A stretch of DNA of 64,000 nucleotides from Klenkia taihuensis. Lineage in GTDB: Bacteria; Actinomycetota; Actinomycetes; Mycobacteriales; Geodermatophilaceae. The notes below the pieces were generated by a model. That model saw nothing but the letters and a program-made list of their open reading frames with translations, was not told the origin of the DNA and searched no databases. Below are positions 2,902 through 20,167 of this stretch, piece by piece; positions within the stretch are counted from its first letter, which is position 1, and each line of letters opens with the position of its first letter. The DNA is taken from positions 558,001-622,000 of the forward strand of contig NZ_FOMD01000001.1 in the NCBI RefSeq assembly GCF_900112525.1, in the 5' to 3' direction. The position numbers and the translations under genes were made by a program.

Positions 2902-2930
2902 GGAGGTCCTTTCCACGAGGAGCGGGCCGA

Positions 2931-2962: not shown

Positions 2963-2969
2963 CCGGCGT

Positions 2970-4022: not shown

Positions 4023-4084
4023 GACCGTTGCTCCGCTTCTCTGGAAGGTGGGTGTTCCGGCGCCTGTGCCGGGGTCTGGGGCGA

Positions 4085-5455
4085 TCAGCCGGCGGCGCAG
4101 GCCTCGGCGAAGTCGCGGGCGGAGCCGCCGTCCCCGAGGGACAGGACGGCGGCGAGCACCCGCTCGGTGGTGGCGTCGTCGGCGACCGGGGCCATGGACT
4201 CCCGGTACTTGGCGACGACGTCGGCGTCGGTGAGCGGCCGGTCGGCGTGGCCGCGGTTGACCTGCTCGCGGTGGGTGAGCACCCGGCCATCGGCGGTGGT
4301 GACCTGCACCCAGCCGGAGTAGGCCTGCGGGAAGGCGCTCTCGTCGTCCGGGACGACCTCGACCTTCCGGGCCAGGGCGAGCACCTCGGGGTCGCGCAGC
4401 GCCTCGTCCGAGAGCTCGGCCAGGGTGAACCGGCCGCGGGCCAGGGCGGTGGAGACGATGTAGGGCAGCGAGAACTTGGCGTCGTACTCGTCGCGCGGCG
4501 CCCACTTGGCCGCGGCGGGCTCGCAGACCACCTTGCCCGGCACCGGGTGGATGGCGCACCGAACGGACGCGACGTCGGCGGCGGTGAGGCCGTGCTCGGC
4601 GCGCAGCAGGAGGACGGCGTCGGCGAAGGCGTGCGCGAAGTGGCAGACCGGGTAGGGCTTGACGGCCGTCTCGGGGGTCTCCCACCGCTGCCCGAGGCCG
4701 TCGGCGACCAGCTCGGGGTGGGTGTCCCGGCCCGCGAGGTGGCTGGCGAACAGGCCGAACCGCCCCTCGTACACCGCCTCGGGCCCGCTCCAGCCGGCCT
4801 TCGCGAAGGTGGCGGCGGTGATGCCGGACTGCGCGGCCCAGCCCGGGTGCAGCCGCTTGGTCCACGACCCGTCCTCGAGGAACTCCAGCAGCCCGGCGGC
4901 CATCGAGCCGACCACGCCCTGTGCGGCGACCAGCTGGTCGGCGTCGAGCCCGGCGATCTTCCCCGCGGCGACGGCGGAGCCGAACGCGCCAGCCACCGCG
5001 GTGGGGTGGAAGCCCAGGTCGTGGAAGGCGCCTGCCCCGGCCAGGCCGACTCTCGCTGCGACCTCCACGCCGAGCACGTAGCCCAGCAGGAGGTCGCGGG
5101 TGGAGGCGTCGGCGGCGACGGCCGCGCTGATGGCGGCGGGCAGGGCCGCGGCGGAGACGTGGGTGACGGCGCCGATGTGGGTGTCGTCGAAGTCCAGCCC
5201 GTGCACGAGGACGCCGTTGAGCACGGCGGCGTCGCGCGCGGACAGCCGCGTCCCCGAGCCGAGGGTGGGGACGTCGCCGGTGCCGAAGGTGGCCAGGGCG
5301 TCGGCGGCGACGTCGGCGAACGGGTGCGCGGACGAGGCGAAGGCCAGGCCCACGGCGTCGAGCACGAGGTGGCGGGCGCGCTGCAGCACGGGTGGGGGGA
5401 CGTCGTCCCAGGTGGTGCGGGCGACGACGTCGGCGACCTGTCGGGCGATGCTCAT
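4085..5455 (-). CDS. MmgE/PrpD-family protein
   Basis: 456-residue member of the family that includes 2-methylcitrate dehydratase, cis-aconitate decarboxylase and iminodisuccinate epimerase. Visible family residues are the acidic DFDDTH segment near residue 90 followed by a His (THVSAA), the FHPT histidine near 160 and the [11 protein letters not shown] lysine block near 200. These match the positions of the catalytic Asp, His and Lys in structurally known members. ATG start with a strong AGGAGGGAG site 6 bases upstream. An operator-like palindrome at 5479-5497 lies just upstream, so this gene may have its own promoter. The reaction (dehydration, decarboxylation or epimerisation) is unresolved. 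Confidence 0.87.
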
Positions 5456-5478
5456 GGGGCTCCCTCCTGTGATCGCGA

Positions 5479-5497
5479 CCATAGGTCAGACGTTTAG
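5479..5497. promoter_or_regulatory. operator-like palindrome, GTC-A-GAC core
   Basis: CCATAG-GTC-A-GAC-GTTTAG. It shares the GTC-A-GAC core and part of the outer arms (CCA, TT.G) with the better palindrome at 6742-6760. It overlaps the last codons of the isochorismatase gene and lies 24 bases before the MmgE/PrpD start. Inferred to be a second site for the neighbouring GntR regulator. Confidence 0.5.
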
Positions 5498-6099
5498 GGC
5501 TGGGAAGACCCCAGCGCCCGGAACCAGGCCACCCCGTCGGGCACGACGTCGGCGTACCGGGCGTCGAGGTCGACCAGCGCGGCGTCGTGGATGGCGGTAG
5601 ACCGGTCGGCCACCGCGTCGGCCAGGACGACGGGGGCGTAGTCCAGCGAGGCGGCGTCGACGACGGTGGCCCGCACGCAGCCGGCGGTGGTGAACCCGGC
5701 GACGGCGAGGGTGTGCACGTCCAGGTCGTGCAGCAGGTCGTCGAGGTCGGTGCGGACGAAGCCCGAGGCGCGCTTCTTGGTGACGACGGGCTCGCCCTCG
5801 GCGTAGCCGACGCGGGGGTCGAACCCCGCCAGGTCCGCGCCGGGGCGCAGCTGGGTGAGCGCGGGGGCCTTCGCCGTCCAGACCGGGCCGAGGTCCTCGC
5901 CCTCGTCGAAGACGACGCGCAGCCAGACGACGGGTACGCCGGCCTCCCGAGCCGCCGCGGCCGCCCGGCCGCAGGCCAGCGCGGCGTCGTCGACCGCGGG
6001 GTCGAGGGTGAACAGCTTCTGGCAGTCGACCAGGACCAGGCCGGGGCGCTCGGTGGTGTCCAGCCGGCCGACGCCGACCCGGACCGCCTCGGCGGTCAC
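5494..6099 (-). CDS. isochorismatase-family amidohydrolase (N-carbamoylsarcosine amidase/RutB-like)
   Basis: 201-residue cysteine hydrolase. The triad expected for this family is visible: Asp25 in LVDCQ, Lys108 in TKKRAS and Cys141 in [10 protein letters not shown]. The KRAS and GCVR spacing is closest to N-carbamoylsarcosine amidohydrolase and maleamate amidohydrolase, and RutB, the ureidoacrylate hydrolase that acts after RutA, belongs to the same fold. The GTG start overlaps the stop of the upstream flavodoxin gene (GTGA), showing translational coupling. With a RutA-like enzyme in the same cluster, a role hydrolysing the ring-opened carbamoyl or amide product is likely; the exact substrate is inference. 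Confidence 0.88.
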
Positions 6100-6710
6100 C
6101 CGGCGAGCCCGGTGGCCACGGCGCCGGCGAACCGGGCGAGGCGGACGCCCTGCAGCCGGCAGGCCTCCAGTGAGACGTCGTCGGGGGCGGCGCCGGAGCG
6201 GGAGACGAACGAGCCGCCATAGGGGTTGCCCGACTCCTTCATCAGGTGCCGCTCGCCGTAGCCGAGGGGCAGCACGAGCGAGCCCCAGTGGTAGAGCACG
6301 TTGTTCATCGCCAGGATCGTGGACTCCAGGCCGCCGTGGCCGGTGCTGGCGCTGGTGAAGGCGGTGCCGACCTTGTCCGCGAGCTTCCCCTGGAACCACA
6401 GGCCGCCGGTGGTGTCGAGGAACTCCTTGAGCTGGCCCGAGGGCAGGCCGAAGCGGGTGGGGCTGCCCAGTGCGATGCCGTTGGCCCACTCGAGGTCGTC
6501 GAGGGTGGCCGTCTCGTAGGTGGCCGCGTCGACGAAGGCCTGCCACCTCGGGTTGGCCGCGATGGCCTCGGCGGGGGCGAGCTCGGGGACGATGCGCAGC
6601 CGGACCTCGGCACCGGCCTCCTCCGCGCCCTTCCCGATCGCCTCCGCCATCGCGGCCAGGTTGCCGGTGGCGGAGTAGAAGACGACGGTGATGCGGGGGG
6701 TGACGGGCAC
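6096..6710 (-). CDS. WrbA-like flavodoxin-fold NAD(P)H:quinone oxidoreductase
   Basis: 204-residue flavodoxin-fold protein. It has an FMN phosphate-binding loop after the first strand (FYSATGN, residues about 9-15), the GSPTRFG loop near 83 and the GGLWFQGK/TSASTGHGG segment near 110-125, all typical of the WrbA family. GTG start with GAGGAG about 9 bases upstream. It is the first gene of locus A and is coupled to the hydrolase gene behind it. In the rut pathway a flavin reductase (RutF) feeds RutA; this protein could serve that role here, or only remove quinones. Neither is proven by the sequence. Confidence 0.87.
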   Translation of the reverse strand: MPVTPRITVVFYSATGNLAAMAEAIGKGAEEAGAEVRLRIVPELAPAEAIAANPRWQAFVDAATYETATLDDLEWANGIALGSPTRFGLPSGQLKEFLDTTGGLWFQGKLADKVGTAFTSASTGHGGLESTILAMNNVLYHWGSLVLPLGYGERHLMKESGNPYGGSFVSRSGAAPDDVSLEACRLQGVRLARFAGAVATGLAG

Positions 6711-6821: not shown

Positions 6822-7523
6822 GTGACCGGCCCCGCGTACGCCGTGCTGGCGGGCAGCATCCGCGCCCGCATCCTGTCCGGCGAGCTCGTGCCGGGGGAGC
6901 GGCTGCCCAACGAGCAGGAGCTGTCGGCGGAGTTCGGGGTCGGCCGGTCCACGGTGCGCGAGGCGCTGCGGTCGCTGGCCTCGCAGGACCTGATCCAGAC
7001 CACCCGCGGGGTGTCCGGTGGCAGCTTCGTCAGCGTGCCGACCGCGGCGCACCTGTCGGCGCACCTGGAGACCGGGGTGGCGCTGATGGCGGCCGCCGAA
7101 CGGGTGACGGTCGGGCAGCTGATGTCGCTGCGCCACCTGCTGGAGGTGCCCGCGGCCGGCGAGGCGGCCAAGCACCGGACCGACGAGCAGCTCGACGACC
7201 TGCGCCGGGCCGAGTTCGACCCCTCCGTGGACTCCGGCGACGCGACCTACGCGGCGAACCAGGACTTCCACCTGGTGCTGCTGCGGGCCACCGGCAACCC
7301 GCTGCTGGAGGTCATCACCGCACCGCTGTTCCGGGTGCTGGCCACCCGGTTCGGCCGCGACCACGCCCCGGACGGCTTCTGGGCCTGCGTCGCCGACGAC
7401 CACGCGGAGCTGCACGACCTGGTCGCCGCCCGCGACGCCGACGGCGCGGTCACCGCGATGCGCCGCCACCTGGACCACCTGACCGGCGCGTACCAGCAGA
7501 TGGACCGCCTCAGCCGCGGGTGA
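6822..7523 (+). CDS. GntR-family transcriptional regulator, FCD subgroup
   Basis: 233-residue regulator. An N-terminal winged helix (RLPNEQELSAEFGVGRSTVR around residues 27-47, then the GG wing) is followed by an all-helical FCD ligand domain with the NQDFHLVLLRATGN block near residue 146, which carries metal or carboxylate-binding positions in this subgroup. FCD regulators often sense carboxylic acids. It is divergent from locus A and has a palindromic operator in the shared promoter region. Similar sites before the MmgE/PrpD gene and in locus B suggest a wider regulon. GTG start; AGG about 4 bases upstream is a weak ribosome-binding site. Confidence 0.93.
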   Translation: MTGPAYAVLAGSIRARILSGELVPGERLPNEQELSAEFGVGRSTVREALRSLASQDLIQTTRGVSGGSFVSVPTAAHLSAHLETGVALMAAAERVTVGQLMSLRHLLEVPAAGEAAKHRTDEQLDDLRRAEFDPSVDSGDATYAANQDFHLVLLRATGNPLLEVITAPLFRVLATRFGRDHAPDGFWACVADDHAELHDLVAARDADGAVTAMRRHLDHLTGAYQQMDRLSRG

Positions 7524-7526
7524 CCG

Positions 7527-8582
7527 TCACGTCGTCCGGGTGACCTTGGCGAGACCGGGCGGGTTGTCGGGGTCCAGACCGCGGCCCAGCGCGGCGGCGT
7601 GGGCCAGCAGCTGGAACGGGAGGATCTCCAGCAGCGGCAGCAAGGTCTCGTCGACGCCGTCGGGCAGCGGCACCTCGAACGAGGGCGCGAGCCGTGCCGC
7701 CGGGCCGACGGTGACGACGACCCCGCCCAGGTCCGCCGCCCGGCGTCCGAAGTCGACGACCGAGGCCCGGGTGGCCTCCCCGGCGGTCAGCAGCAGGACC
7801 AGCGTGCCCGGACCCACCTGGCCCAGCGGGCCGTGCGTTGCGTCGGCCGCGCTCCACCCCGACGCGGCTACCCGGTTGGTCTCCATCAGCTTCAGCGCAC
7901 CCTCGCGGGCGCTCGACATCGACAGGCCCCGCCCGACGACGACCATCCGGTCGGCGGTCAGTGCCGCGTCGAGCAGACCCGGCTCCGGGACGTCGTCGTG
8001 CAGCAGGTCCTCGGCCGCCTCGACGGCGGCGCCCACCCGTGCCCGCAGCGTCTCCCAGGCATCCCCGGCCGCCAGGCCGACCACGACGTGCAGGGCGAGC
8101 AGGCTGGCGGTGTAGGTCTTGGTCGCCGCCACCGAGAGCTCGGGGCCGCAGCCGAGGTCCAGGTGCAGGTCGCCGAGCCGGGCGACCGTGCTGCCCGGGG
8201 TGTTGGTGATCGCCAGGACGGTGACCCCGGCGGCCTTCGCCGACCGCACCGTCTCGATGAGGTCCGGCGACTCCCCGGACTGCGACACCGCGACCATCAA
8301 CGTGCGCGGGTAGCGCAGCTGCGCCCGGTAGGCGGTGAACGCGCTCGGCGTGGCCAGCATCGCCGGGACGCCGAGCCGGGAGTGGATCAGGTACTGGGCG
8401 TAGGTCGCGGCGTGGTCGCTGGTGCCCCGGGCGGCCAGCACGACCAGTTCGGGGTCGACGTCCCGGAGCAGGTCGGCGGCCGCCTGCAGGCCGGCGGCGC
8501 CCTCGCCGACCAGTCGCGCCCAGACCGCGGGCTGCTCCTCGATCTCCCGGCGCAGCAGGCCGCCGGGCAGCACGGCGGTCAC
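7527..8582 (-). CDS. double-SIS-domain sugar-phosphate isomerase/deaminase-like protein
   Basis: 351 residues made of two SIS domains, the architecture of the isomerase half of GlmS and of AgaS-type deaminases. First SIS: VLAARGTSDHAATYAQ near 50 and VSQSGESPD near 99. Second SIS: VVVGRGLSMSSAREGALKLMET near 216. There is no glutaminase domain and no lone Cys N-terminus. It is the last gene of the ABC-importer operon and its start overlaps the ATPase stop. It probably acts on an amino-sugar or amino-polyol phosphate produced by the ROK kinase in the same operon; the substrate is unknown. Confidence 0.85.
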   Translation of the reverse strand: MTAVLPGGLLRREIEEQPAVWARLVGEGAAGLQAAADLLRDVDPELVVLAARGTSDHAATYAQYLIHSRLGVPAMLATPSAFTAYRAQLRYPRTLMVAVSQSGESPDLIETVRSAKAAGVTVLAITNTPGSTVARLGDLHLDLGCGPELSVAATKTYTASLLALHVVVGLAAGDAWETLRARVGAAVEAAEDLLHDDVPEPGLLDAALTADRMVVVGRGLSMSSAREGALKLMETNRVAASGWSAADATHGPLGQVGPGTLVLLLTAGEATRASVVDFGRRAADLGGVVVTVGPAARLAPSFEVPLPDGVDETLLPLLEILPFQLLAHAAALGRGLDPDNPPGLAKVTRTT

Positions 8583-9325
8583 GACGAGAGCCCGGTGATC
8601 ATGCCGATGACCTCGTTCTTGTCGGTCCCCGCGGTGGGCCGGGTGCCCACCTGGGTGCCGCGGCGCAGCACGGTCACCCGGTCGGCGATGCGGAAGACCT
8701 GGTCCAGGTTGTGCGACACGATCAGCACGGCTGCCCCCCGCTGCTTGAGCTTGAGGATGACCTCCTCCACCTTGGCCGTCTCGGCCACGCCGAGGGCTGC
8801 TGTGGGCTCGTCCATCAGCACCAGGCCCGAGGCCCAGTGGGTGGCCCGGGCGATCGCGATGCCCTGCCGCTGCCCGCCCGAGAGGTCGCCGAGCAGGGCC
8901 CGGGCCGAGGGGATGCGGACGTCGAGGTCGTCGACCAGCTGCTGGGTCTGGCGGGCCATCTCCTTGCGGTCGAGCACCCGCAGTGGGCCCCGGCGCAGCT
9001 CCCGGCCGAGGAAGAGGTTCATGTAGACCGGCTGCAGGTCCACCAGCGCGAGGTCCTGGTAGACGACCTCGACGCCCTTGGCGCGGGCGTCGGCGGCGTC
9101 GCGGAAGGTGACCTGCTCGCCGTTGATCTCGATGCTGCCCTCGCTGGGCTGGTAGAGCCCCGAGATGATCTTCACCAGGGTGGACTTGCCCGCCCCGTTG
9201 TCGCCGACCAGCGCCACGATCTCACCGGGGGCGACCTCCAGGTCGAAGCGCTGGATGGCGGTCACGCCGCCGAAGTGCTTGCTGACGCCCTCGAGGCGGA
9301 GGGGTGCTGCGGTCGTGGTGGTCAT
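8579..9325 (-). CDS. ABC transporter ATP-binding protein, sugar type
   Basis: 248-residue single nucleotide-binding domain. Walker A is GDNGAGKST near residue 41, the Q-loop is VYQDLALVD, the signature is DLSGGQRQG near 148 and Walker B with the catalytic Glu is LVLMDEPTA near 168, with the switch His in VSHNLD. It resembles the half-size ATPases of the ribose/fructose importer group (FrcA-like) rather than the double-domain RbsA. It works with the permease and binding protein encoded upstream; two copies would be needed per transporter. Its start overlaps the YhfX-like gene stop by 4 bases. Confidence 0.93.
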   Translation of the reverse strand: MTTTTAAPLRLEGVSKHFGGVTAIQRFDLEVAPGEIVALVGDNGAGKSTLVKIISGLYQPSEGSIEINGEQVTFRDAADARAKGVEVVYQDLALVDLQPVYMNLFLGRELRRGPLRVLDRKEMARQTQQLVDDLDVRIPSARALLGDLSGGQRQGIAIARATHWASGLVLMDEPTAALGVAETAKVEEVILKLKQRGAAVLIVSHNLDQVFRIADRVTVLRRGTQVGTRPTAGTDKNEVIGMITGLSS

Positions 9326-10545
9326 GACGGCCTTCCGGTTCCCAGGGCTGCGGTGACGGTGAGGGGGGCGGACCCGTCGGCCGCCCAGATGCCGGCCAGC
9401 TCGGGCCGGCCGGTGGACAGGCCGCGGATGCCCGCGGTGAGCGCCCGGGTGACGAACACCTGGGGTCGGAAGCCGAAGAGCACGGTGTCGCCGGGGCGCG
9501 CCCGGCCGGCCGCCCCCGGGACGACGGCGTAGTAGTCGATGGCCGAGGGCGCCGGCATCTCGACGTCCAGCTCGGCGGCGTCGGCCACGTCGACGTCGTC
9601 GCCCAGCACGAGCGCCCGGGTCGGCACGTCACCGAGCACGGGGTCGACGTAGAGCCCGCCGCCGAAGACGTACGCGTCGCCGTCCCAGGTGTGCGAGACC
9701 TCCGAGAGGTAGACGATCGCGGGGTCCTCGACCAGGTCCTGCACCGCGTGCAGCGGCGTGGTGCCGGTCAGCCCGTGGCCGGGCTCGACCTGCGTGGCCC
9801 CGGCCTCGGCCAGCGTCTGCAGCACCGACACCGAGGTGGTGCCGGGGGCGTTGAGCTCGACGTCGGTGCGGCCGGCGGCCAGGAGGGCCCGCTTGACCCG
9901 GGTGAGCGTGCCCAGGTTGGGCGTCGAGCGCGCCGTGCCCGACCCCGGGTCGAACAGGGTGGCCGGGAAGCTGGTGACGCCGGCGAACCGTGCACCGGGC
10001 AGGCCGTCGACGAGGTCGGCCAGCGCGGCGACGTCCTCGGGGGCGATCCCGCCCTCGTGGCCCCGGTAGAAGCGGTCGCCGGGAGCGGCGACCCGGATCA
10101 GCAGGTCCTGCACCCGCCCTGCCCGCTCGGCCGCCGCAGCGGCCTCCCGGGCCTTGGCCTCGGAGAAGACCGTCCAGAAGGACGGCTCCAGTGCGGCGGC
10201 GTCGTCCGCCGAGTGCCGCGGGATCTGCACCAGGTGGCCGAGGTGGCCGATGCCCAGACCGCCGGCTGCGGCGGCGACCGCGCACTCCAGGTCGACCCCG
10301 ACGGCGTGGCTGATGCCGCCGGCGGCGATGGCCCGGGACGCGTCGGGGTTGCGGCCGATCTGCTTGGTCATCGCGAACGGTGTCAGGCCCAGACGCTGCG
10401 CCTCGGCGGTGACCGCCGCTGCGTTGCGCTCGACCGCGTCGAGGTCGAGCACGTAGGTGTTGGGCGGCAGCACACCGGCCCGGTGGAAGGCGTGGGCCGC
10501 GCGCAGCAGCGGGACCGCGCGCCGGCGGAGGAGGGGGAGGAACAC
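9322..10545 (-). CDS. YhfX-like PLP-dependent alanine racemase-family protein
   Basis: 407-residue protein with a fold-type III PLP barrel. TYVLDLDAVERNA near residue 30 and the PLP lysine in FAMTKQIGR near 60 mark the racemase-like N-terminal domain, and the C-terminal beta domain follows. The long insertions and the YLSEVSHTWDGDAYVFGGG block resemble the uncharacterised YhfX group of enterobacteria. In E. coli yhfX lies near a phosphotriesterase-homology gene, and here such a gene is again in the operon, so the pairing recurs. The gap to the permease gene is 3 bases. The reaction is unknown; racemase or aldolase chemistry on an amino compound is plausible. Confidence 0.8.
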   Translation of the reverse strand: MFLPLLRRRAVPLLRAAHAFHRAGVLPPNTYVLDLDAVERNAAAVTAEAQRLGLTPFAMTKQIGRNPDASRAIAAGGISHAVGVDLECAVAAAAGGLGIGHLGHLVQIPRHSADDAAALEPSFWTVFSEAKAREAAAAAERAGRVQDLLIRVAAPGDRFYRGHEGGIAPEDVAALADLVDGLPGARFAGVTSFPATLFDPGSGTARSTPNLGTLTRVKRALLAAGRTDVELNAPGTTSVSVLQTLAEAGATQVEPGHGLTGTTPLHAVQDLVEDPAIVYLSEVSHTWDGDAYVFGGGLYVDPVLGDVPTRALVLGDDVDVADAAELDVEMPAPSAIDYYAVVPGAAGRARPGDTVLFGFRPQVFVTRALTAGIRGLSTGRPELAGIWAADGSAPLTVTAALGTGRPS

Positions 10546-10548
10546 GGG

Positions 10549-11529
10549 TCAGCCCTGCTTCTTGCCGCGGAGGGACAGGGAAACCGCCAGCAGGATGATG
10601 ATCCCGCGGACGATCATCTGCTGGGACACGTTGAGCCCGGCCAGGATCAGGCCGTTGTTGATCATGCTGATGAGCAGAGAGCCGATCAGGGCGCCGACCA
10701 TCGAGCCCTTGCCGCCGGTCAACGCCGTGCCGCCCACGATGACCGCGGCCAGCACGGAGAGCAGGTCGCTCTCGCCGAGGGTGTAGCGGGCGCCCTGGAG
10801 GCGGCCGGAGTAGAGCAGCGCGGCCATCGCGGCGGTCATCCCGCTGAGCACGAACACCCACATCCGCACCCGGTCGACCCGCACGCCGCTGACGCGGGCC
10901 GCGGGCGTGTTGTTGCCGACGGCGAGCACGTGCGCGCCGAAGCGGCGCTGGCGCAGCAGGTGCGCGCCCACGATCGTCACCACGACGGTCCACCAGATGA
11001 TGGTGGGGACACCGAGCAGGTCGCCCCCGCCGAAGATCCACACGAACGCGTCGTCGGTGACCGGCACCGACTGCAGGTCGGTGAGCTGGCGGGCGATGCC
11101 GGTGACCAGCCCCATCGAGGCGAGCGTGACCAGGAACGACGGCAGCCGGACGTAGGTCACGAAGACCCCGTTGACCGCGCCGACCGCGGCGCCGACCGCG
11201 AGCCCGGCCGCTGCCCCCAGCAGCCAGTTGCCGGTGGACTCCAGCACCAGTGCGGCGCCCAGGGAGGCCAGCGCGACCGTCGAGCCGATCGACAGGTCGA
11301 TCTCACCGGTGCTCAGCACGAAGACGGCCCCGACCGCCATGATCGCGATCGGCGCGGCCTGGATCACGACGTTGGTCAGGTTGGTCGGCGTCAGGAAGTA
11401 CTGCGACTGGGTGACGGCGAAGAACAGGAAGGTCAGGACGAAGCCGACGTAGACGACGCTCGCGCGCCAGTCGACCGCCGGCAGCCTCCGGGTCGTGCCC
11501 TCGCGGGTGTCGGTGTCGGTGGTGCTCAT
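10549..11529 (-). CDS. ribose-type ABC transporter permease
   Basis: 326-residue integral membrane protein of the RbsC/branched permease family (BPD_transp_2). About eight to ten hydrophobic segments are visible, and AVGAVFVLSTGEIDLSIGS near residue 65 and VIVGGTALTGGKGSM near 262 are characteristic of this family. The ATG start overlaps the ROK kinase stop (ATGA), so it is translationally coupled. It forms the channel of the importer with the half-size ATPase and the lipoprotein binding protein of the same operon. Confidence 0.95.
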   Translation of the reverse strand: MSTTDTDTREGTTRRLPAVDWRASVVYVGFVLTFLFFAVTQSQYFLTPTNLTNVVIQAAPIAIMAVGAVFVLSTGEIDLSIGSTVALASLGAALVLESTGNWLLGAAAGLAVGAAVGAVNGVFVTYVRLPSFLVTLASMGLVTGIARQLTDLQSVPVTDDAFVWIFGGGDLLGVPTIIWWTVVVTIVGAHLLRQRRFGAHVLAVGNNTPAARVSGVRVDRVRMWVFVLSGMTAAMAALLYSGRLQGARYTLGESDLLSVLAAVIVGGTALTGGKGSMVGALIGSLLISMINNGLILAGLNVSQQMIVRGIIILLAVSLSLRGKKQG

Positions 11530-12440
11530 CGGGTTCCTTCCAGGGCGGGTCCGGGGGCGTGCGCGCGGGCGAGGTGGATGGCCCCGAGGACGGGGGCCTG
11601 CGGGCCGAGGGTGCTGGCCTGGACGGCGAGGTCGGCGGCGCCGAGCTCGCCGAGGGTGCGTCGCAGCGGGGGGAGGAGCTCCGGCCGGGACCCGATGCCG
11701 CCGGTCAGCACGACGACCTCGGGGTCCAGGACGGCGCGGACGGCGACCAGGGCCAGGGCCAACCAGTGGGCGTGCTCGGCGACGGCGTGCGCGGCGGCCC
11801 GGTCGCGCGCGGCCGCGTCGAAGATCTCCGTCGCCGTCCAGCTGCGTCCGTCGCCGGCACGCGGCGGGACCCGGCCGGCCAGCACGTCGCCGGCCACCGC
11901 CTCCTCGAGCGGACCGCGCCGGTGGTGGGCGGGGTCGAAGGGGTCGGTGCCCAGCGGCAGGAAGCCGATCTCGCCGGCTGCGCCGCGGGCTCCGCGCACC
12001 AGCCGGCGGTCGACCACGACCCCCATGCCGATCCCGGTGCCGGAGGCGACGACCACGAAGGAGTCGTGCCGGGTGCCCACGCCGTGGTGCAGCTCGCCGA
12101 GCGCGGCGACGTTGACGTCGTTCTCCAGCACCACCGGGTGGCCGAGGTGGCGGGCCAGGTCGGGGCCGAAGGACGCGCCGGTCGGCAGGTCGAGGTTGGG
12201 GTGCAGGTCGAACCCGTCGTCCTCGGCCGCACCCGCCCCGCCGACGGCGGTCACCTCGACCGCGGACAGCGGTACACCCACCTCGCGGACGAGGGCGTGC
12301 TCGACCTCCAGGATGCGGCCCGCAAGGTCGCCGTGGGTGGGCACGCGGGTCTCGGCCAGCAGGGCGCCGTCCGGGCCGGAGATCCCGGCGTGGATCTTCG
12401 TGCCGCCGAGGTCGACGCCGACCACGTAGCCGGCGCTCAC
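11526..12440 (-). CDS. ROK-family sugar kinase
   Basis: 304-residue kinase with the phosphate-binding motif GVDLGGTKIHAG at the N-terminus, ENDVNVAALGE near residue 104 containing the catalytic Asp, and GTGIGMGVVVD near 130. The Cys-rich zinc motif that many ROK kinases carry after the catalytic domain is missing: the segment reads LPLGTDPFDP with no cysteines. GTG start overlapping the stop of the hydrolase gene. It probably phosphorylates the sugar or amino-sugar brought in by the importer before the SIS protein acts. Confidence 0.9.
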   Translation of the reverse strand: MSAGYVVGVDLGGTKIHAGISGPDGALLAETRVPTHGDLAGRILEVEHALVREVGVPLSAVEVTAVGGAGAAEDDGFDLHPNLDLPTGASFGPDLARHLGHPVVLENDVNVAALGELHHGVGTRHDSFVVVASGTGIGMGVVVDRRLVRGARGAAGEIGFLPLGTDPFDPAHHRRGPLEEAVAGDVLAGRVPPRAGDGRSWTATEIFDAAARDRAAAHAVAEHAHWLALALVAVRAVLDPEVVVLTGGIGSRPELLPPLRRTLGELGAADLAVQASTLGPQAPVLGAIHLARAHAPGPALEGTR

Positions 12441-13450
12441 GCGGCGACCGCCAGCAGCCGGGCCGGGGTGTGCCGGAGGAGCTGCTCGACCTGCTCGTCG
12501 GTGACGCCGCGGTCGGTGAGCATGGGCACGAAGACGTCGGCGAGGTAGCGGTAGCCGGCGGTGCCGTGGGTGCCGGCGTTCATCCACGCCTCGGCGCCGG
12601 TGAGGTCCTGGGCGAGCACGACGCGGTCGCCGAACCCGTCGGCCACCAGCCCGGCGACGAGGTCGGCGCGGCCGGCGTCGGAGCGGTGGAAGCAGCGCTT
12701 GGCGAACTCGCCGTCGGCGCGGCCGGTCTGCGGCGGGCCGAGGAAGAACTCCCACTCCTGCTTGCCGATGGTGTCCACGGCGACGCAGGCACCGGTGGCC
12801 AGCACACGGCGCGGCAGGTCGGGGTCCAGTTGGGTGTCGAGGTGCCCGACGACGACACGGGACGGGTCCAGGCCCTCCGCCACGAGGAGGTCGACCTGGT
12901 CGAGGGCCAGGGTGCCGTGCGTGGTGTGGGTCATGAGGGCCGTGCCGGTGCGCAGCGCGGCGCGGGCCGAGGCGCGGAGGGCGCGCTCCTCGAAGGCGGA
13001 CATCTCGCCCAGGCCGGTGGCCTGCTCGCCGAGGACGCCGGCCCGGATGCCGGTGCCGCCGAAGCCGGTGGTGAGGTCGGCGACCAGCCGGTCGGTCAGC
13101 TGCTCGACGGTCGCCTCGCGGGCCCAGGCCGGAGCCCAGGACTCCAGGTAGAGGGCGGTGCCGCTGACCACGTGCAGGCCGCTGCGCCGGGAGACCTCGG
13201 CCAGCAGGGCCACGTTCTCGCCGTCGGCGTCGCGGCCCACCACGCCGTAGGGGGAGAGGTCGACGACGGTGCCGAACCCGCGGTCGGCGAGGCCGCGCAG
13301 CGCGTGCACGGCGAGCTCGACCGGGTCGCCCAGCGGGGCGTCGTCGGCGGTCCACGGACCGGGGGAGAGGGAGAGCAGGTGCTCGTGCGGCATGACGCGG
13401 CCGAGCTCGTCGGCCGGCACCGGGCCGAGGACGGTCTGTACGTGGGGCAT
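12437..13450 (-). CDS. phosphotriesterase-family metal hydrolase (PHP/lactonase-like)
   Basis: 337-residue amidohydrolase-superfamily barrel. Metal ligands are visible in order: HEH in VMPHEHLL near residue 24, Glu in AGVLGEQ near 150, His in THTTHG near 180, His in VVGHLDTQ near 208 and Asp in LAQDLTG near 278. A Glu in place of the carboxylated Lys is seen in the phosphotriesterase-homology protein group, which contains lactonases. ATG start, second gene of the operon. It may hydrolyse a lactone or a phosphodiester formed from the imported substrate; organophosphate activity should not be assumed. Confidence 0.87.
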   Translation of the reverse strand: MPHVQTVLGPVPADELGRVMPHEHLLSLSPGPWTADDAPLGDPVELAVHALRGLADRGFGTVVDLSPYGVVGRDADGENVALLAEVSRRSGLHVVSGTALYLESWAPAWAREATVEQLTDRLVADLTTGFGGTGIRAGVLGEQATGLGEMSAFEERALRASARAALRTGTALMTHTTHGTLALDQVDLLVAEGLDPSRVVVGHLDTQLDPDLPRRVLATGACVAVDTIGKQEWEFFLGPPQTGRADGEFAKRCFHRSDAGRADLVAGLVADGFGDRVVLAQDLTGAEAWMNAGTHGTAGYRYLADVFVPMLTDRGVTDEQVEQLLRHTPARLLAVAA

Positions 13451-13470
13451 GGGGTCCCTGCCTGTGGGGG

Positions 13471-13496
13471 TGGGGCGGCCCGGGCGGGCCGCCCCA
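13471..13496. promoter_or_regulatory. perfect stem-loop after the binding-protein gene
   Basis: TGGGGCGGCCC and GGGCCGCCCCA form an uninterrupted 11-bp stem with a 4-base loop, between the binding-protein stop (13504) and the hydrolase start (13450). Hairpins at this place in ABC operons commonly block 3' decay or partly terminate, so that binding protein is made in excess. Confidence 0.55.
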
Positions 13497-13503
13497 CCGG
13501 CGA

Positions 13504-14622
13504 TCAGTTGACGCTGTCGGGCAGGTCGGTGCCGTAGTCCTCGCGCCAGGCGTCCTCGAGGTTGTCGGTGGTCACCTTGACCGGCGGCGAGGCCACCAGT
13601 GCCGGGGCCTCCTTGTCCAGCACGCCGTAGGCGGCGGCCAGGGCCAGGCCGCGGCCGATGTCGATCGAGCCGTTGCCGACCAGGCCGACGACGTTGCCGC
13701 CGTCGACCATGTCCGCGGCGAGGGTGGCGTCCAGGTCGTTGGTCACGACCTTGATGTCCGAGCGGCCGGCGTTGCGCAGCGCCGAGACGACACCCTGGGC
13801 GGCGGTGGCCCAGGAGACGTAGATGCCGGTGATGTTCGGGTTGCGGGCGATCATCGCCTGCGCGATCTCCTCGGTGCGCGCCTCGTCGGCGAAGCCCTCC
13901 TCGGCCACGATCTCCATGCCGGGGTACTCGTAGCCCAGCCAGTTGCGGAAGGCCTCGTCGCGCTGGTTGGTGAACCAGAAGTCCGCGTCGTGGTAGATGT
14001 AGCCGACCTGCCCGGAGCCGTCGAGCGCGTCGCCCAGGATCTCCGCGTTCGCCCGCCCGGCCTCGGTCAGCGACTCGGTGACGATGGAGACGAACTGGTC
14101 GCCCGCGGTGTAGCCGGCCGGCGGCGTGGTCATGACGACCAGGGTCTTGCCGGCGTCGACGGCGGGCTGGAAGGCCGCTGCGGCCGAGGTCGGGTCGACC
14201 GCGATGGTCACGATGATGTCGGGGTCCAGGGCCAGCACGCTCTGCACGTTGTTGGCCTGGGTGGCGGCGTCGAAGTCGGCCTGGGTGCTCGCGACGACGT
14301 CGATGCCGAGGTCCTCGAACTCCTGGCGGGCGCCGTCCTCGACGGCGGAGACGAACTCCGACGACGTGTGCCACACGAAGGCCGCGGTGTAGGAGCCGCC
14401 GCGGACGGTGGCCTCCTCCTCGTCGGTGAGCGACAGCTCGTCGAGGTCCCCGGGCTGCTCCCCGTTGGGACCCTGGAACTCCAGGCTCGGCTCGCTCGCC
14501 GGTGCGGCGTCGCTCGACGAGGACGGGGTGTCGCCACCGCCGGAGCAGGCGCTGAGGGCCAGGGTCGTGCCGACGAGCGCGGCGGCCAGGGGCCGCAGCC
14601 GCCGGGAACGGGAGAGCTGCAT
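13504..14622 (-). CDS. sugar ABC transporter substrate-binding lipoprotein
   Basis: 372-residue extracytoplasmic binding protein of the RbsB/periplasmic-binding-protein-4 type. An N-terminal signal ends in the lipobox LSAC with Cys26 as the lipidation site, followed by a low-complexity Gly/Ser linker. The mature part shows the two-lobe pattern, with DIIVTIAVDPTSA, LVVMTTPPAGY and ITGIYVSWATAAQG segments. I chose ATG at 14622, which is followed directly by the signal peptide and has GAGAGG about 7 bases upstream. First gene of the operon, with a dyad element in its promoter region. The ligand is not known. Confidence 0.92.
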   Translation of the reverse strand: MQLSRSRRLRPLAAALVGTTLALSACSGGGDTPSSSSDAAPASEPSLEFQGPNGEQPGDLDELSLTDEEEATVRGGSYTAAFVWHTSSEFVSAVEDGARQEFEDLGIDVVASTQADFDAATQANNVQSVLALDPDIIVTIAVDPTSAAAAFQPAVDAGKTLVVMTTPPAGYTAGDQFVSIVTESLTEAGRANAEILGDALDGSGQVGYIYHDADFWFTNQRDEAFRNWLGYEYPGMEIVAEEGFADEARTEEIAQAMIARNPNITGIYVSWATAAQGVVSALRNAGRSDIKVVTNDLDATLAADMVDGGNVVGLVGNGSIDIGRGLALAAAYGVLDKEAPALVASPPVKVTTDNLEDAWREDYGTDLPDSVN

Positions 14623-14663
14623 GGGGGACCTCTCGAAGGGGTGTGCTGGGTGGTGCTGCGGAG

Positions 14664-14686
14664 TTTGCTTTCTGCTCGCAAGCAAA
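14664..14686. promoter_or_regulatory. predicted operator of the ROK repressor
   Basis: Inverted repeat TTTGCTT-N9-AAGCAAA, in an unusually A/T-rich patch between the binding-protein gene and the divergent ROK repressor gene. TTxGC-type arms with long spacers are common for NagC/XylR-like repressors, so this is the best candidate for the operon's operator. Confidence 0.6.
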
Positions 14687-14787
14687 GTCAAGGTCGAATG
14701 TCGTAACGATCACGTTGCAGGCGGGTGCGACTAGGTGATCCGGGTCGATCCCGATACTTTTGCTCTCACATCGAGTGGAGTGGAGCC

Positions 14788-15924
14788 ATGACCGACCTGC
14801 GTGAGGCCAACCGTGGTGCCGTGCTGTCGGACCTGCTCGTGCACCGGCCGACCACCCGGACGGCCATCGCGCAGCGCACCGGGCTCTCGGCCGCGACCAT
14901 CTCCCGCGCGGTCGAGGTCCTGGTCGCCGACGGTGTCGTCCGCGAGGTGTCGGAGGTCGTGTCCGCCAACCGCGGTCGCCGCGCGGTCGCCCTCGACCTC
15001 GTGGGCGAGCGCAGCGTCGTGGCCGGCGTCGACCTCGGCGCCAGCACCACCCGTGTCGTGCTGGCCGACTTCGCCGGGGCCGAGCTGCGGCGGTGGGAGG
15101 AGCCGACCCGGAGCGACCTGCCGGCGGCGGCCCTGGCCGACTGGTTGGCCGGGATGGTGACCGGGCGGTCGGCCGGTCTCGGTGCCGGCCTGGCGGCGGT
15201 CTCGGTGGGCCTCCCGGGAGCGGTGGCCGAGTCGGGGGCGGTGTCGAACGCCCCGAACCTGCCCCAGGTGATGGACGCCGAGTTCACCTCCGGCCTGCGC
15301 CGGGCCGGCGCAGTCGGCATCCGGGTGGACAACGACGTCAACTACGCGCTGCTCGGCGAGCAGCGTCGCGGCGCCGCCGCCGACGCGGGGGACGCCGCGA
15401 TGGTCACCATCGGGGCGGGGCTCGGCGCCGCGCTGGCCATCGACGGCCGCATCCTGCACGGCCGGCACGGGCTGATCGGGGAGTTCGGGCAGCTCCCGGC
15501 CGGGCCCATGGGTACCCGGCTCGAGCACATGGTCACCGGCCCGGGCATCCTGCGCCGGGCGGAGGAGGCCGGAGTGCCGCTCGCCCGGCCGCAGGACCTC
15601 TTCGACGACGAGCACCGGCTCTCACCGCTGCGCACCCAGTTCGACCACGCACTGCAGATCGTGCTGACCGCGGTCGCGGTGGCCAGCGAGCCGGAGGTCG
15701 TCGTCCTCGGCGGGGGCATCGCCGAGTCGCTGGCCGGTGACCTGGACCGGTACCAGGCCACGCTCGGCGCCACGCTGCAGGTCGCGCCGCGGCTGGTGCC
15801 GGCAGCGCTGGGCTCGTTCTCCGGTGCGATCGGTGCCGCGATCGACGCCGTCCACTCCCTCTACGCCGACCTGGGGGCCGAGCCCGGCTTCGGGGGCGGC
15901 CACGGCCGCAGTGCTGCGTCCTGA
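14788..15924 (+). CDS. ROK-family transcriptional repressor
   Basis: 378-residue NagC/XylR-type regulator. The N-terminal winged helix (RTAIAQRTGLSAATISRAVE around residues 28-47) is followed by a ROK ligand domain with AGVDLGASTTRVVLAD near 80 and VDNDVNYALLGE near 180. The zinc-binding cysteines of classical ROK proteins are missing, as in the kinase of the adjacent operon. ATG start with GGAG 6 bases upstream. It is divergent from the importer operon and very probably represses it through the TTTGCTT dyad, released by a sugar or sugar phosphate. Confidence 0.92.
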   Translation: MTDLREANRGAVLSDLLVHRPTTRTAIAQRTGLSAATISRAVEVLVADGVVREVSEVVSANRGRRAVALDLVGERSVVAGVDLGASTTRVVLADFAGAELRRWEEPTRSDLPAAALADWLAGMVTGRSAGLGAGLAAVSVGLPGAVAESGAVSNAPNLPQVMDAEFTSGLRRAGAVGIRVDNDVNYALLGEQRRGAAADAGDAAMVTIGAGLGAALAIDGRILHGRHGLIGEFGQLPAGPMGTRLEHMVTGPGILRRAEEAGVPLARPQDLFDDEHRLSPLRTQFDHALQIVLTAVAVASEPEVVVLGGGIAESLAGDLDRYQATLGATLQVAPRLVPAALGSFSGAIGAAIDAVHSLYADLGAEPGFGGGHGRSAAS

Positions 15925-17089: not shown

Positions 17090-17160
17090 TTGATCATCGC
17101 CAGGTGCAGCTGGGACACGCCGCGGGCCGGCGTGCCCGACCTGCCGATGACGATGATCAA
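17090..17160. repeat. long intergenic hairpin with TTGATCA ends
   Basis: TTGATCATCG at 17090-17099 is the exact reverse complement of CGATGATCAA at 17151-17160. Inside lie CAGGT/ACCTG and a near-complementary CACGCCG/CGGCGTG stem with a small loop, so most of the 71 bases can fold. It fills the gap between two convergent genes and touches the amidase stop codon. It shares its TTGATCA-type ends and fold with the element at 43019-43114. Confidence 0.65.
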
Positions 17161-18359
17161 CTGGGAGGCAGTGCCGGCCCGGCCGGTGGGCGGCGGGTGT
17201 GCCACGCGGTCTGCTGCTGGTACCACTCGCCGGCGGCGAACAGGACGTCCTCGGCGTCCTCCGGGGCGGTGAGCTGGACGCCGACCGGCATCCCCGACAC
17301 CGGGTGAAAGCCGACCGGCAGCGCCAGCGTCGGGCCGGCGTGCAGGGACCACGGGTAGGTCAGCGACCCCAGCCGGCGGGACACCCGCAGGACGTCGTCG
17401 GGGTCGGCGCGGGGGACGTCGACCGGCAGCGTCGGCGTCAGGAACAGGTCGACGCCGTCCAGCGCGGCGGAGATGCGGGACTGCAGACCCCGTCGGGCCT
17501 CGACGGCAGCGGCGTGGTCCAAGGAGGTCAGGTCCCGGCCCAGGCCGATCCGCACCAGGCTGTCGGGGTGGAACCGCTGCGGTTCCGACGCGAGCCGGCC
17601 GGCGTGGATGCGCGCCAGGTCGGCGTAGACCAGCGTGTAGACGATGTCCTGCGCGTCCAGCAGACCCTCGACCTCCACCGGCACGACCTCGGCGCCGAGC
17701 ACCGCGACCGCCGCGTCGACCACCTGCTGCACGCCCGGGTCGACGTCGGTCAGCAGCTGCACCGGGATGCCGATCCGCCTCGGGGCGGCCGCAGCAGGCA
17801 GGGGCGCCGACGACCCGGTCAGCACCCGCTGCGCCCGGGCCACCAGGTCGACGGTGCGCGCCAGGGGTCCCACGGTGTCCACGTCGTCGCAGACCGGGAA
17901 GACGCCGTCCATCGGGATCGAGCCGTGCGTCGGTCGCAGTCCCACCACCCCGCAGGCCGACGCGGGCAGCCGGATCGAGCCGCCGGTGTCGGTGCCCAGC
18001 GCCAGGTCCACGATCCCCGCCGCCACGGCGGCCCCCGACCCGCCGCTCGACCCACCCGGGATGCGGGCGAGGTCCCACGGGTTCCGGCACGGCCCGGCCG
18101 CGGAGTTCTGGTTGGTCACCCCGACGGCGAACTCGCTCAGGTTCAGCGTCGCCACGACCGAGGCCCCGGCGTCGGACAGTCGGCGCACGACCTCGGCGTC
18201 GTGCGACGGGACCCGGTCGGCGAAGAACGCGGACGCGCACGTGGTGGGCCCGCCGGCGATGTCCACGTTGTCCTTGACGCCCACCCGGACCCCGGCGAGC
18301 GGGCCGGGGCCGCCGGGACGGTCGACCCACCGGATCACCGCGTTCACGTGGTCGTCCAC
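17157..18359 (-). CDS. amidase-signature-family hydrolase
   Basis: 400-residue amidase (GatA/acylamidase type) with the Ser-cisSer-Lys triad context: Lys in VGVKDN near residue 29, the glycine/serine loop GGSSGGSG near 103 and TDTGGSIRLP near 124. It releases ammonia from a carboxamide. A longer reading frame begins at TTG 18407, inside the palindrome at 18393-18411. I prefer GTG at 18359, which has TGGAG 6 bases upstream and leaves the operator outside the gene. It is divergent from the MaoC-CoA-transferase operon and probably delivers that pathway its free acid. Confidence 0.85.
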   Translation of the reverse strand: MDDHVNAVIRWVDRPGGPGPLAGVRVGVKDNVDIAGGPTTCASAFFADRVPSHDAEVVRRLSDAGASVVATLNLSEFAVGVTNQNSAAGPCRNPWDLARIPGGSSGGSGAAVAAGIVDLALGTDTGGSIRLPASACGVVGLRPTHGSIPMDGVFPVCDDVDTVGPLARTVDLVARAQRVLTGSSAPLPAAAAPRRIGIPVQLLTDVDPGVQQVVDAAVAVLGAEVVPVEVEGLLDAQDIVYTLVYADLARIHAGRLASEPQRFHPDSLVRIGLGRDLTSLDHAAAVEARRGLQSRISAALDGVDLFLTPTLPVDVPRADPDDVLRVSRRLGSLTYPWSLHAGPTLALPVGFHPVSGMPVGVQLTAPEDAEDVLFAAGEWYQQQTAWHTRRPPAGPALPPS

Positions 18360-18392
18360 CGGCACTCCAGACGTCGCAGGGGGCTTGCGCTC

Positions 18393-18411
18393 CGAATCAT
18401 CAGACAATTAG
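18393..18411. promoter_or_regulatory. operator-like palindrome shared with locus A
   Basis: CGAATC-ATC-A-GAC-AATTAG, matching the pattern of the sites at 6742 and 5479 (core GTC-A-GAC with A/T-rich outer arms). It lies 34 bases before the amidase start and 27 bases before the MaoC start, in the only divergent promoter region of locus B. Binding by the GntR regulator at 6822 is inferred. Confidence 0.55.
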
Positions 18412-18437
18412 CGTGCGGCTGTCGAGGGAGGTCCATC

Positions 18438-18962
18438 ATGGCCACGCACCCCGCCGTCCTGGGGCGGTTCTTCGAGGACTACGTCGTCGGCGACGTCTAC
18501 CAGCACCCGCTCGGCCGCACGATCTCCGAGGCCGACAACACCTGGCTGACGATGCTGACGATGAACACCAACCAGCAGCACGTCAACGCGCACCTGGCCG
18601 CGCAGAACCCGATCACCGGGGGCCGGGTCATCGTCAACTCCGGGCTGACGATCGCGCTGGTGCTGGGCCTGAGCGTGCTGGACATGAGCCAGAACGCCGT
18701 GGCCAACCTGGAGATGACCGACGTCAAGCTGACCCACCCGGTCTACGTCGGCGACACCCTCTACGCCGAGAGCCTCTGCACCGCGCTGCGGGCGTCGAGG
18801 TCCCGGCCGTACGCGGGGATCGTCTCGATGGTCACCCGCGGCCTGAACGCCGAGGGCGACGAGTGCATCTCCCTCAAGCGGTCGGTCATGGTCGCGACGA
18901 GGGAGTCCGGCATCGGGCAGGGCCACTTCCCGACGGCGAAGAACGGGCCGATCACCGCATGA
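18438..18962 (+). CDS. MaoC-family enoyl-CoA hydratase, itaconyl/mesaconyl-CoA hydratase-like
   Basis: 174-residue single hot-dog hydratase. The segments DYVVGDVYQHPLGRTI, MNTNQQHVNAH, SQNAVANL and KLTHPVYVGDTLYAESL strongly recall the mycobacterial itaconyl-CoA hydratase (Rv2499c type), from memory of that family. The catalytic Asp/His pair would be in the DNTWLT...H region around residues 34-54. ATG start with GGGAGG about 6 bases upstream. It is the first gene of a four-gene operon whose last product is a CitE-like lyase, as expected for hydration to citramalyl-CoA followed by cleavage. Confidence 0.88.
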   Translation: MATHPAVLGRFFEDYVVGDVYQHPLGRTISEADNTWLTMLTMNTNQQHVNAHLAAQNPITGGRVIVNSGLTIALVLGLSVLDMSQNAVANLEMTDVKLTHPVYVGDTLYAESLCTALRASRSRPYAGIVSMVTRGLNAEGDECISLKRSVMVATRESGIGQGHFPTAKNGPITA

Positions 18963-20164
18963 GGCCGCTCGAGGACGTCCGGATCATCGCGCTCGAGCAG
19001 TACGGCGCCGGTCCCTTCGGCAGCGTGCACCTGGCCGACCTCGGCGCCGAGGTCATCAAGATCGAGGACCCGCGCACCGGAGGCGACATCGGCCGCTACG
19101 TCCCGCCCTACGTGCACGGCGAGGACTCGTTGTTCTACGAGACCTTCAACCGCAACAAGCAGAGCCTGTCCCTGGACATCTCCACCCCCGCCGGCCGCGC
19201 GGTCTTCGAGGACCTGGTGCGCACCAGCGACGCGGTCTGGTCCAACCTGCGCGGCGACGTCCCGGCCAAGATCGGCATCCGGTACGCCGACCTCGCCCAC
19301 CTCAACCCGGCGATCGTCTGCTGCAGCCTCACCGGGTTCGGCATGACCGGCCCCAGGCGGAACGAGCCCGGCTACGACTACGTGCTGCAGGGCATCGCCG
19401 GCTGGATGAGCCTCACCGGCGACCCGGACGGCCCGCCCACCAAGACCGGGCTGAGCCTCGTCGACTTCTCCAGCGGCTTCGTCGCCGCGCTCAGCCTGCT
19501 GGCCGGCCTGCACGTCGCGCGGCGGGACGGCGTGGGCGGGGACTGCGACGTCTCCCTCTACGACACCGCCGTCTCCCTGCTGACCTACCCGGCGACCTGG
19601 GCGATGACGGCGGGGTACGAACCGGTCCGCACCGTCGACTCCGCGCACCCCTCGCTGGTGCCCTTCCAGGCCTTCGCCGCCTCCGACGGCTGGCTGGTCG
19701 TCGGCTGCGCCAAGGAGAAGTTCTGGCAGCGGCTGGTCGCCGTGATCGGCCGGCCCGACCTGGGGGACGACGCACGGTTCGCCACCTTCGCGCTGCGCGA
19801 CCGCAACCGGGAGGCCCTCCTGCCGCAGCTCAAGGAGGCCTTCCTCGGCGACACCGTCGAGCACTGGCTGGCGCAGCTGCAGGCCGCCGGGGTGCCGTCG
19901 TCCCCGATCAACGACGTCGGCCAGGCCCTGGCCGACCCGCAGGCCGCCGCCCGCGGCCTGCTGCTGGAGACCGAGCACCCGCACTGGGGCACCGTGAAGC
20001 AGGTGGGCAGCCCCGTCCGGTTCGGCCCCCAGCGCACCGACCACGTGCGGGCGCCGCACCGCAACGAGCACCAGGACCGCATCACCCGCGACCTGCTCGG
20101 CTACTCGGCCGAGCGCGTGGCCGAGCTCGAGGCCGCCGGCGCGTTCGGACAGCAGGGGAGCTGA
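18959..20164 (+). CDS. family III (CaiB/BaiF) CoA-transferase
   Basis: 401-residue class III CoA-transferase. The N-terminal half carries the nucleotide-like fold with DLGAEVIKIEDPRTGGD near residue 28-45, and the catalytic Asp is expected in GYDYVLQGIAGWM near 140. The GxGPxR-like linker GFGMTGPRRNEPGYD is typical. The ATG overlaps the MaoC stop (ATGA), so the genes are coupled. It would activate a free dicarboxylic acid with CoA from succinyl-CoA or acetyl-CoA; itaconate, mesaconate or methylsuccinate fit its neighbours best. Confidence 0.9.
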   Translation: MRPLEDVRIIALEQYGAGPFGSVHLADLGAEVIKIEDPRTGGDIGRYVPPYVHGEDSLFYETFNRNKQSLSLDISTPAGRAVFEDLVRTSDAVWSNLRGDVPAKIGIRYADLAHLNPAIVCCSLTGFGMTGPRRNEPGYDYVLQGIAGWMSLTGDPDGPPTKTGLSLVDFSSGFVAALSLLAGLHVARRDGVGGDCDVSLYDTAVSLLTYPATWAMTAGYEPVRTVDSAHPSLVPFQAFAASDGWLVVGCAKEKFWQRLVAVIGRPDLGDDARFATFALRDRNREALLPQLKEAFLGDTVEHWLAQLQAAGVPSSPINDVGQALADPQAAARGLLLETEHPHWGTVKQVGSPVRFGPQRTDHVRAPHRNEHQDRITRDLLGYSAERVAELEAAGAFGQQGS

Positions 20165-20167
20165 CCG

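Follow-up and report, generated by a model that had tools for sequence, protein, structure and literature searches.

An operon of Klenkia taihuensis with YhfX-like and phosphotriesterase-family enzymes that may serve the catabolism of an amino-sugar conjugate

What does a bacterium import and degrade with an operon that joins a ribose-type ATP-binding cassette (ABC) importer to a YhfX-like enzyme dependent on pyridoxal 5'-phosphate (PLP) and to a hydrolase of the phosphotriesterase (PTE) family? This question is raised by a locus of Klenkia taihuensis within a stretch of 64,000 nucleotides (contig NZ_FOMD01000001.1, positions 558,001 to 622,000), hereafter the window, in whose numbering all coordinates of this genome are given. 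An earlier reading made from the letters of the DNA (the sequence-only reading) had noted the locus at 7527–15924 and had regarded the roles of both enzyme families, as well as the substrate and the pathway, as undescribed. Our literature searches on YhfX, the yhf operon, or PTE combined with SIS, ROK or NagB agree with this, as they returned, within the papers that could be searched, none on this gene set. Our analysis reveals that the operon is a real, conserved and self-contained unit, beyond what chance would produce: its gene set and order are kept in relatives, and it carries a conserved palindrome found only once in the genome. We propose that it serves the self-regulated catabolism of a hexosamine carrying an acyl or amino-acid part (N-acylated or amino-acid-conjugated glucosamine), a reading to which we give about an even chance of being correct.

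Organization, conservation and regulation of the operon

The seven operon genes lie on the minus strand and are transcribed in the order CUT2-type solute-binding lipoprotein (13504–14622), PTE-family hydrolase (12437–13450), ROK-family sugar kinase (11526–12440), CUT2-type permease (10549–11529), YhfX-like fold-III PLP enzyme (9322–10545), single-domain ABC ATPase of the importer (8579–9325) and double-SIS protein (7527–8582). The junctions between them measure, in the same order, +53, −4, −4, +3, −4 and −4 bp, so that the tight coupling described by the sequence-only reading, mostly through 4-base overlaps, is borne out, with such overlaps at four of the six junctions. Its count of seven genes is accurate for the operon, but the span to which it was applied additionally holds the gene of a ROK-family repressor (14788–15924, plus strand; ROK domain at 106.5 bits together with helix-turn-helix models), which diverges from the operon.

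A genome-wide scan yielded 471 relatives of YhfX, of which the best 80 loci were retrieved with their flanks; genes were called with training per locus, and these loci are the basis of all counts out of 80 given below. The search for shared neighbourhoods of YhfX and PHP genes, which the sequence-only reading had called for, recovered a gene set and order that are conserved down to protein identities of ~45–65%. The order of binding protein, PTE, ROK kinase, permease, YhfX and ATPase, along with the divergent ROK repressor as a conserved partner, recurs in most of the Actinobacteria that have the operon, for example in Leifsonia, Agromyces, Mycetocola, Arthrobacter, Aeromicrobium, Blastococcus and Micromonospora. 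The SIS gene is the last gene in most actinobacterial loci, Micromonosporaceae excepted, the PTE gene stands at the operon end in a few loci, and few additional genes are present inside actinobacterial operons of this type. The YhfX of the window shares 95% identity with its Klenkia brasiliensis counterpart. YhfX is rare: it occurs in 9 of the 399 genomes taken as a sample of the host's order, and two other phyla sampled gave 8 of 299 genomes each. No relative of the window YhfX was found in the viral contigs searched.

Between the repressor and the operon, a pattern match locates an operator-like palindrome, TTTGCTT-N9-AAGCAAA (14664–14686, no strand assigned). It is the sole match within the window when up to two mismatches are allowed (chance expectation 0) and a single site in the whole 4.3-Mb genome when up to one mismatch is allowed. 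A matching palindrome is present in the same region between repressor and binding-protein genes in 13 other retrieved loci (two of them from one genome), including loci of Leifsonia, Herbiconiux, Agromyces and Arthrobacter. These findings point to a regulator that acts at a single target, the putative operator, so that the locus would form a closed unit.

The double-SIS protein and its replacements

The double-SIS protein (PF01380, 108.6 bits) is 351 amino acids in length and aligns with glucosamine-6-phosphate synthase (GlmS) only from residue ~253 on; the glutaminase domain is absent, and the protein is thus not a GlmS in the strict sense. It scores 183 bits against GlmS and 177 bits against NagB-II. 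Residues S55, S100-Q101-S102, K231, E234, H250 and K346 are invariant in 27 SIS relatives and align with the isomerase site of GlmS, an active site of the isomerase/deaminase type found in GlmS and NagB-II. We take K231, E234, H250 and K346 to match K485, E488, H504 and K603 of GlmS, and assign to the individual residues the roles generally attributed to this site.

Loci of the Acidimicrobiia type carry in place of this gene one for a NagB-I protein with the motifs LLDEY and NGHIAFNEP. SIS is present in 34 of 80 loci and NagB-I in 15, while no locus has both, and the slot has changed at least twice on the YhfX tree. Locus L115 has an AgaS-family gene which, with the adjoining genes for a PfkB kinase and a class II aldolase, makes up a galactosamine-like (tagatose-type) set. 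As judged from the genome of K. taihuensis itself, with SIS matches in ~4 genes and one nagB-like gene, a SIS or NagB gene would lie within 20 kb of a random point with an estimated chance of ~2%; such a gene is seen at 49 of 80 loci. Since the SIS protein has a GlmS/NagB-II active site and is replaced elsewhere by NagB-I and AgaS, an amino-sugar-type substrate is supported, and the protein is a candidate glucosamine-6-phosphate deaminase. From the ROK kinase and the double-SIS protein, the sequence-only reading had deduced an amino-sugar-like or amino-polyol substrate; the amino sugar is retained here, while no support was found for an amino-polyol. As a separate observation, distant YhfX genes in L020 and L115 lie beside SIS proteins (GlmS-like in L020, AgaS in L115), a PfkB kinase and a class II aldolase, and L020 also encodes a dimethylformamidase-like large subunit.

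The sugar kinase has a ROK domain (PF00480, 130 bits) with DLGGT at position 10 and ENDVN at position 106, and lacks the CxCGxxGC zinc motif that many ROK kinases carry. We propose it as a hexosamine 6-kinase. Elsewhere in the same genome a nagA-like and a nagB-like gene are adjacent, both below curated cut-offs; because of this pair, plain N-acetylglucosamine should not need the operon.

The PTE-family hydrolase and its replacements

The PTE-family hydrolase (PF02126, 176.9 bits) is of the PHP/PTER type: its metal ligands H22, H24, E142, H175, H203 and D282 are the same in all 33 sequences compared, E. coli PHP among them, and a Glu replaces the carboxylated Lys, as in PHP. Mammalian PTER, an amide hydrolase that acts on N-acetyltaurine, likewise has a Glu, E169, in its modelled metal site (PMC11374699). 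In other lineages an M20 deacylase with conserved motifs occupies the hydrolase slot. PTE is found in 39 of 80 loci, 26 of which also have SIS; M20 is found in 18, and the two never occur together. At least three changes of this slot have taken place on the YhfX tree, and the M20 case of Planosporangium (L050) is nested among PTE-bearing relatives. A YhfX operon in L019 contains a D-aminoacylase-type amidohydrolase together with a NagK-like kinase, and in yhf operons of Firmicutes php is accompanied by an amidase-signature-like gene. The case for amide chemistry rests above all on the sharing of one slot by several unrelated amide hydrolase families, and we therefore propose that the PTE-family protein might be an amide hydrolase.

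The YhfX-like PLP enzyme

The YhfX-like protein matches PF21279 (YhfX family) at 77.6 bits against a gathering cut-off of 27, on an alanine-racemase-type barrel (Ala_racemase_N). Its predicted structure (mean predicted local distance difference test score, pLDDT, 94) is closest to the E. coli YhfX structure 4kbx, with a Z score of 50.4 and 36% identity. The next match is D-threonine aldolase (Z 27.9, 3.5 Å over 348 residues), followed at Z ~26.5–24 by beta-hydroxyaspartate aldolase, diaminopimelate decarboxylases, D-threo-3-hydroxyaspartate dehydratase, D-serine dehydratase and alanine racemases; Foldseek with the same model gives the same leading matches. Because these scores are closely spaced, the fold does not single out a reaction type.

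Residues K61, E254 (in EPGH), H285, R360 and Q362 are invariant in 63 YhfX relatives, and by analogy we read K61 as the PLP lysine and E254 as the partner of the pyridine ring. The R360-x-Q362 motif aligns with the SHPC region of the D-threonine aldolase/D-serine dehydratase family (PF14031) in a global hhalign alignment, which is weak (local probability 60%), so the comparison of metal ligands rests on motif position and fold match. The His-x-Cys/Asp ligands of that family are missing, and no PF14031 match is found in YhfX. As Arg-x-Gln occupies the position of the metal pair, a metal-assisted retro-aldol or dehydration reaction seems unlikely; contact of R360-x-Q362 with an anionic group is likelier.

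The importer

The sequence-only reading had named a ribose-type importer, and the assignment to CUT2 is confirmed by a Peripla_BP_4 binding protein (PF13407, 119 bits), a BPD_transp_2 permease (PF02653, 131.7 bits; nearest models GguB, AraH and RbsC) and an ABC ATPase (ABC_tran, 105 bits). However, the ATPase consists of one domain of 248 amino acids, in contrast to the usual double form (RbsA), and its alignment to CUT2 ATPases covers their first half. The model of the binding protein (mean pLDDT 91) matches many sugar-binding proteins of the CUT2 type about equally well, at Z 29–32, and does not discriminate a ligand. Of the eight residues that contact ribose in RbsB (N13, N64, D89, R90, R141, N190, D215 and Q235), only D215 is kept, as D296, in the hhalign alignment, and the other seven are changed.

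Most loci have a CUT2 importer, while an APC amino-acid permease replaces or accompanies it in L014, L052, L070, L087 and L095, and the neighbours of YhfX in L020 resemble, as read from sequence, a branched-chain-amino-acid-type ABC system. This variety of transporters would fit a molecule with both sugar and amino-acid character. A second YhfX paralogue (43–46% identity to that of the window) and/or a second binding protein is present in or beside the operon in L045, L050, L055, L060, L069 and L121–L123, perhaps for two related ligands.

Proposed pathway and alternative explanations

In the pathway that we propose, the CUT2 importer would take up a hexosamine conjugate, the PHP/PTER-type metal hydrolase would cut its amide bond, and YhfX would handle the amino-acid-like part by racemisation or cleavage. 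The ROK kinase would then produce glucosamine-6-phosphate, which the double-SIS enzyme would deaminate to fructose-6-phosphate and ammonia. The divergent ROK repressor would bind the unique palindrome and might be released by the sugar or sugar phosphate. Here the gene set, its conservation, the palindrome, the active-site residues and the replacements are observed, and we infer the chemistry and the order of the steps from amide cleavage to deamination, as well as the binding of the repressor and the ligand.

Among the known systems most like it, the alf-2 glycoamino-acid cluster of L. casei combines an amide hydrolase (glycosylasparaginase), an M20 peptidase, a PLP amino-acid enzyme, a ROK kinase and a permease (PMC6960285). 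Like the present operon it has a permease, an amide hydrolase, a ROK kinase, a PLP amino-acid enzyme and its own regulator, and the sugar part is finally converted to a hexosamine phosphate; unlike the present operon it has an MFS permease and a fucosidase in place of the CUT2 importer, an aspartate decarboxylase as PLP enzyme and a GntR-type regulator, and YhfX, PTE and SIS are absent. Catabolism of N-acetylglucosamine and glucosamine with NagB-II likewise uses a kinase and a GlmS-like double-SIS deaminase leading to fructose-6-phosphate, but the operon of K. taihuensis has no NagA, adds the importer, PTE and YhfX, and its SIS protein scores below the NagB-II cut-off. The operon would add a new form to the known catabolism of amino sugars or glycoamino acids, one that includes an orphan PLP enzyme.

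Several observations weigh against this proposal. The SIS protein reaches only 177.4 bits against the NagB-II equivalog (NF046059; cut-off 430), and the hydrolase only 141.7 bits against the PHP equivalog (NCBIfam NF007373; cut-off 486), and relatives of the PTE-family protein include lactonases and phosphotriesterases too. There is no deaminase nearby in 31 of 80 loci, including seven Micromonosporaceae, in some of them owing to the end of the contig. The counts of slot swaps are not independent, since the exclusive swaps represent few events (at least three for the hydrolase and at least two for the deaminase). Lastly, the remaining pathway does not predict what YhfX would do.

As to what YhfX does, the chief competing explanation comes from the ong pathway for N-acetylglucosaminic acid (PMC9537276), in which a fold-III PLP enzyme of the D-serine/D-threonine group acts after an amide hydrolase. 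According to this explanation, the substrate would be an N-acyl-2-amino-2-deoxy-aldonic acid (for example N-acetylglucosaminic acid from oxidised chitin), deacetylated by PTE and deaminated by YhfX in the manner of OngC. The modelled YhfX shares that PLP fold, and the D-aminoacylase-type gene in the YhfX operon of L019 points the same way. However, the ong pathway uses an SSS transporter, 2-keto-3-deoxygluconate (KDG) kinase, RidA and other hydrolase and PLP families, and has neither a glucosamine-6-phosphate deaminase nor a ROK kinase; a deaminase slot filled by SIS, NagB-I or AgaS, and the ROK kinase, would be left without a role. Genes for KDG kinase, 2-keto-3-deoxy-6-phosphogluconate aldolase and RidA were not seen in the operons, and YhfX has Arg-x-Gln where the dehydratases have their metal ligands; we consider this explanation improbable. 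We give a similarly small chance to an Amadori or Heyns compound as substrate, which the SIS protein would split as a FrlB-like deglycase into a hexose phosphate and an amino acid, the latter being racemised by YhfX. The amino-acid product would account for YhfX, and the frl fructoselysine operon likewise combines a double-SIS protein (FrlB) with a sugar kinase and has an APC permease (FrlA), the type that replaces the importer in some YhfX loci. But the SIS protein is much nearer to GlmS and NagB-II than to FrlB (23% identity over part, 40 bits), it keeps the GlmS-type K231 where FrlB has Thr and is not FrlB-like, and its slot is also filled by NagB-I, a glucosamine-6-phosphate deaminase family. 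Furthermore, the operon has a ROK kinase instead of one of the PfkB type and no FrlC- or FrlD-like gene, and the amide hydrolase would have no clear role.

A simple or N-acyl amino sugar (such as an N-acyl mannosamine), deacylated by PTE or M20 and epimerised or otherwise handled by YhfX through its 2-amino group, would use every gene and make an amino acid unnecessary, with kinase and deaminase steps as in our preferred pathway; CUT2 importers also mostly carry monosaccharides. Against this, the APC permeases of some loci fit an amino acid better, and we know of no fold-III PLP enzyme that acts on a free hexosamine, which leaves this explanation only slightly credible. Even less probable is that PTE is a sugar lactonase, that the substrate is a nitrogen-free sugar or sugar acid and that SIS is an aldose-ketose isomerase. 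Several PTE-family proteins are lactonases, an NCBIfam phospho-furanose lactonase model matches at 71.8 bits, and the importer is ribose-like; but the PHP-type Glu ligand, the presence of M20 or other amide hydrolases where PTE would stand, the substitution of NagB-I for the supposed isomerase and the loss of the ribose contacts in the binding protein all argue otherwise, and the PLP enzyme would have nothing to act on.

Genes flanking the operon

The GntR/FCD-type regulator gene at 6822–7523 (plus strand; nearest model NanR, below cut-off) was ruled out as regulator of the operon, as it is convergent with it and adjoins it in Klenkia loci only. It is divergent from a minus-strand cluster at 2017–6710 with genes of FMN reductase, isochorismatase, MmgE/PrpD, luciferase-like monooxygenase and phosphoenolpyruvate-mutase/isocitrate-lyase type, common to K. 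brasiliensis, which looks like another catabolic cluster. Beyond the repressor, the region 17157–22164 contains an amidase-signature gene on the minus strand and a plus-strand run encoding a MaoC protein like mesaconyl-CoA hydratase, a family III CoA-transferase, an acyl-CoA dehydrogenase and an HpcH/CitE-type lyase; this gene set suggests that a branched dicarboxylic acid is processed through coenzyme A (CoA) intermediates.

Relation to the yhf operon of E. coli

The YhfX of the window is 35% identical to E. coli YhfX and the PTE-family protein is 28% identical to E. coli PHP. In E. coli K-12 the two genes are close neighbours in yhfS-yhfZ, with yhfW between them, and the statement of the sequence-only reading that the two families occur together in the enterobacterial yhf region is therefore correct. 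Structures of E. coli YhfX (4kbx) and PHP (1bf6 and 4lef) have been solved, but the literature that could be searched yielded no role assigned to them. The E. coli operon resembles the present one in joining YhfX to PHP, with the same metal ligands, and differs in having YhfS, YhfT, YhfU and YhfW instead of the CUT2 importer, the ROK kinase and SIS. At the same E. coli K-12 locus (L021, 1911–14345) the frl fructoselysine operon adjoins the yhf operon.

In a Firmicute yhf operon with php, yhfS, yhfX and yhfW (L107), a NagB gene (7635–8390, minus strand) adjoins yhfW and exceeds its curated cut-off (307 against 236.9 bits). NagB is present in one of ~9 Firmicute yhf-type operons, and this single case is a lead, not a result, for a tie between the E. 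coli yhf operon and amino sugars. Its position may also hint that the phosphopentomutase-like YhfW acts on a hexosamine phosphate. Between php and yhfT, Firmicute yhf operons encode a protein of ~365 amino acids (L107, 12841–13929; L108, 12855–13964; L109, 13012–14124) that is not present in E. coli; its core motif region matches Pfam Amidase in L107 and L109, the two that were scanned. In a metagenome-assembled genome of Chloroflexi (L116, 6414–8499), an MttB-type methyltransferase and an apparent corrinoid protein adjoin yhfW-yhfX-yhfS.

A broader and rather doubtful possibility is that YhfX, together with hydrolases of the PHP type, makes up a widespread module that dismantles a hexosamine–amino acid conjugate, in which the metal-free PLP reaction would be new and the E. 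coli yhf operon, with its phosphomutase-like YhfW, would be a version of the same pathway. The slot swaps among relatives reduce the open question of YhfX and PHP to a short list of candidates, namely amide hydrolysis, deamination of glucosamine-6-phosphate and (glyco)amino-acid chemistry. If our interpretation is right, the operon would represent a route for amino-sugar conjugates in soil actinobacteria and would provide an explanation for the orphan yhf operon of E. coli.

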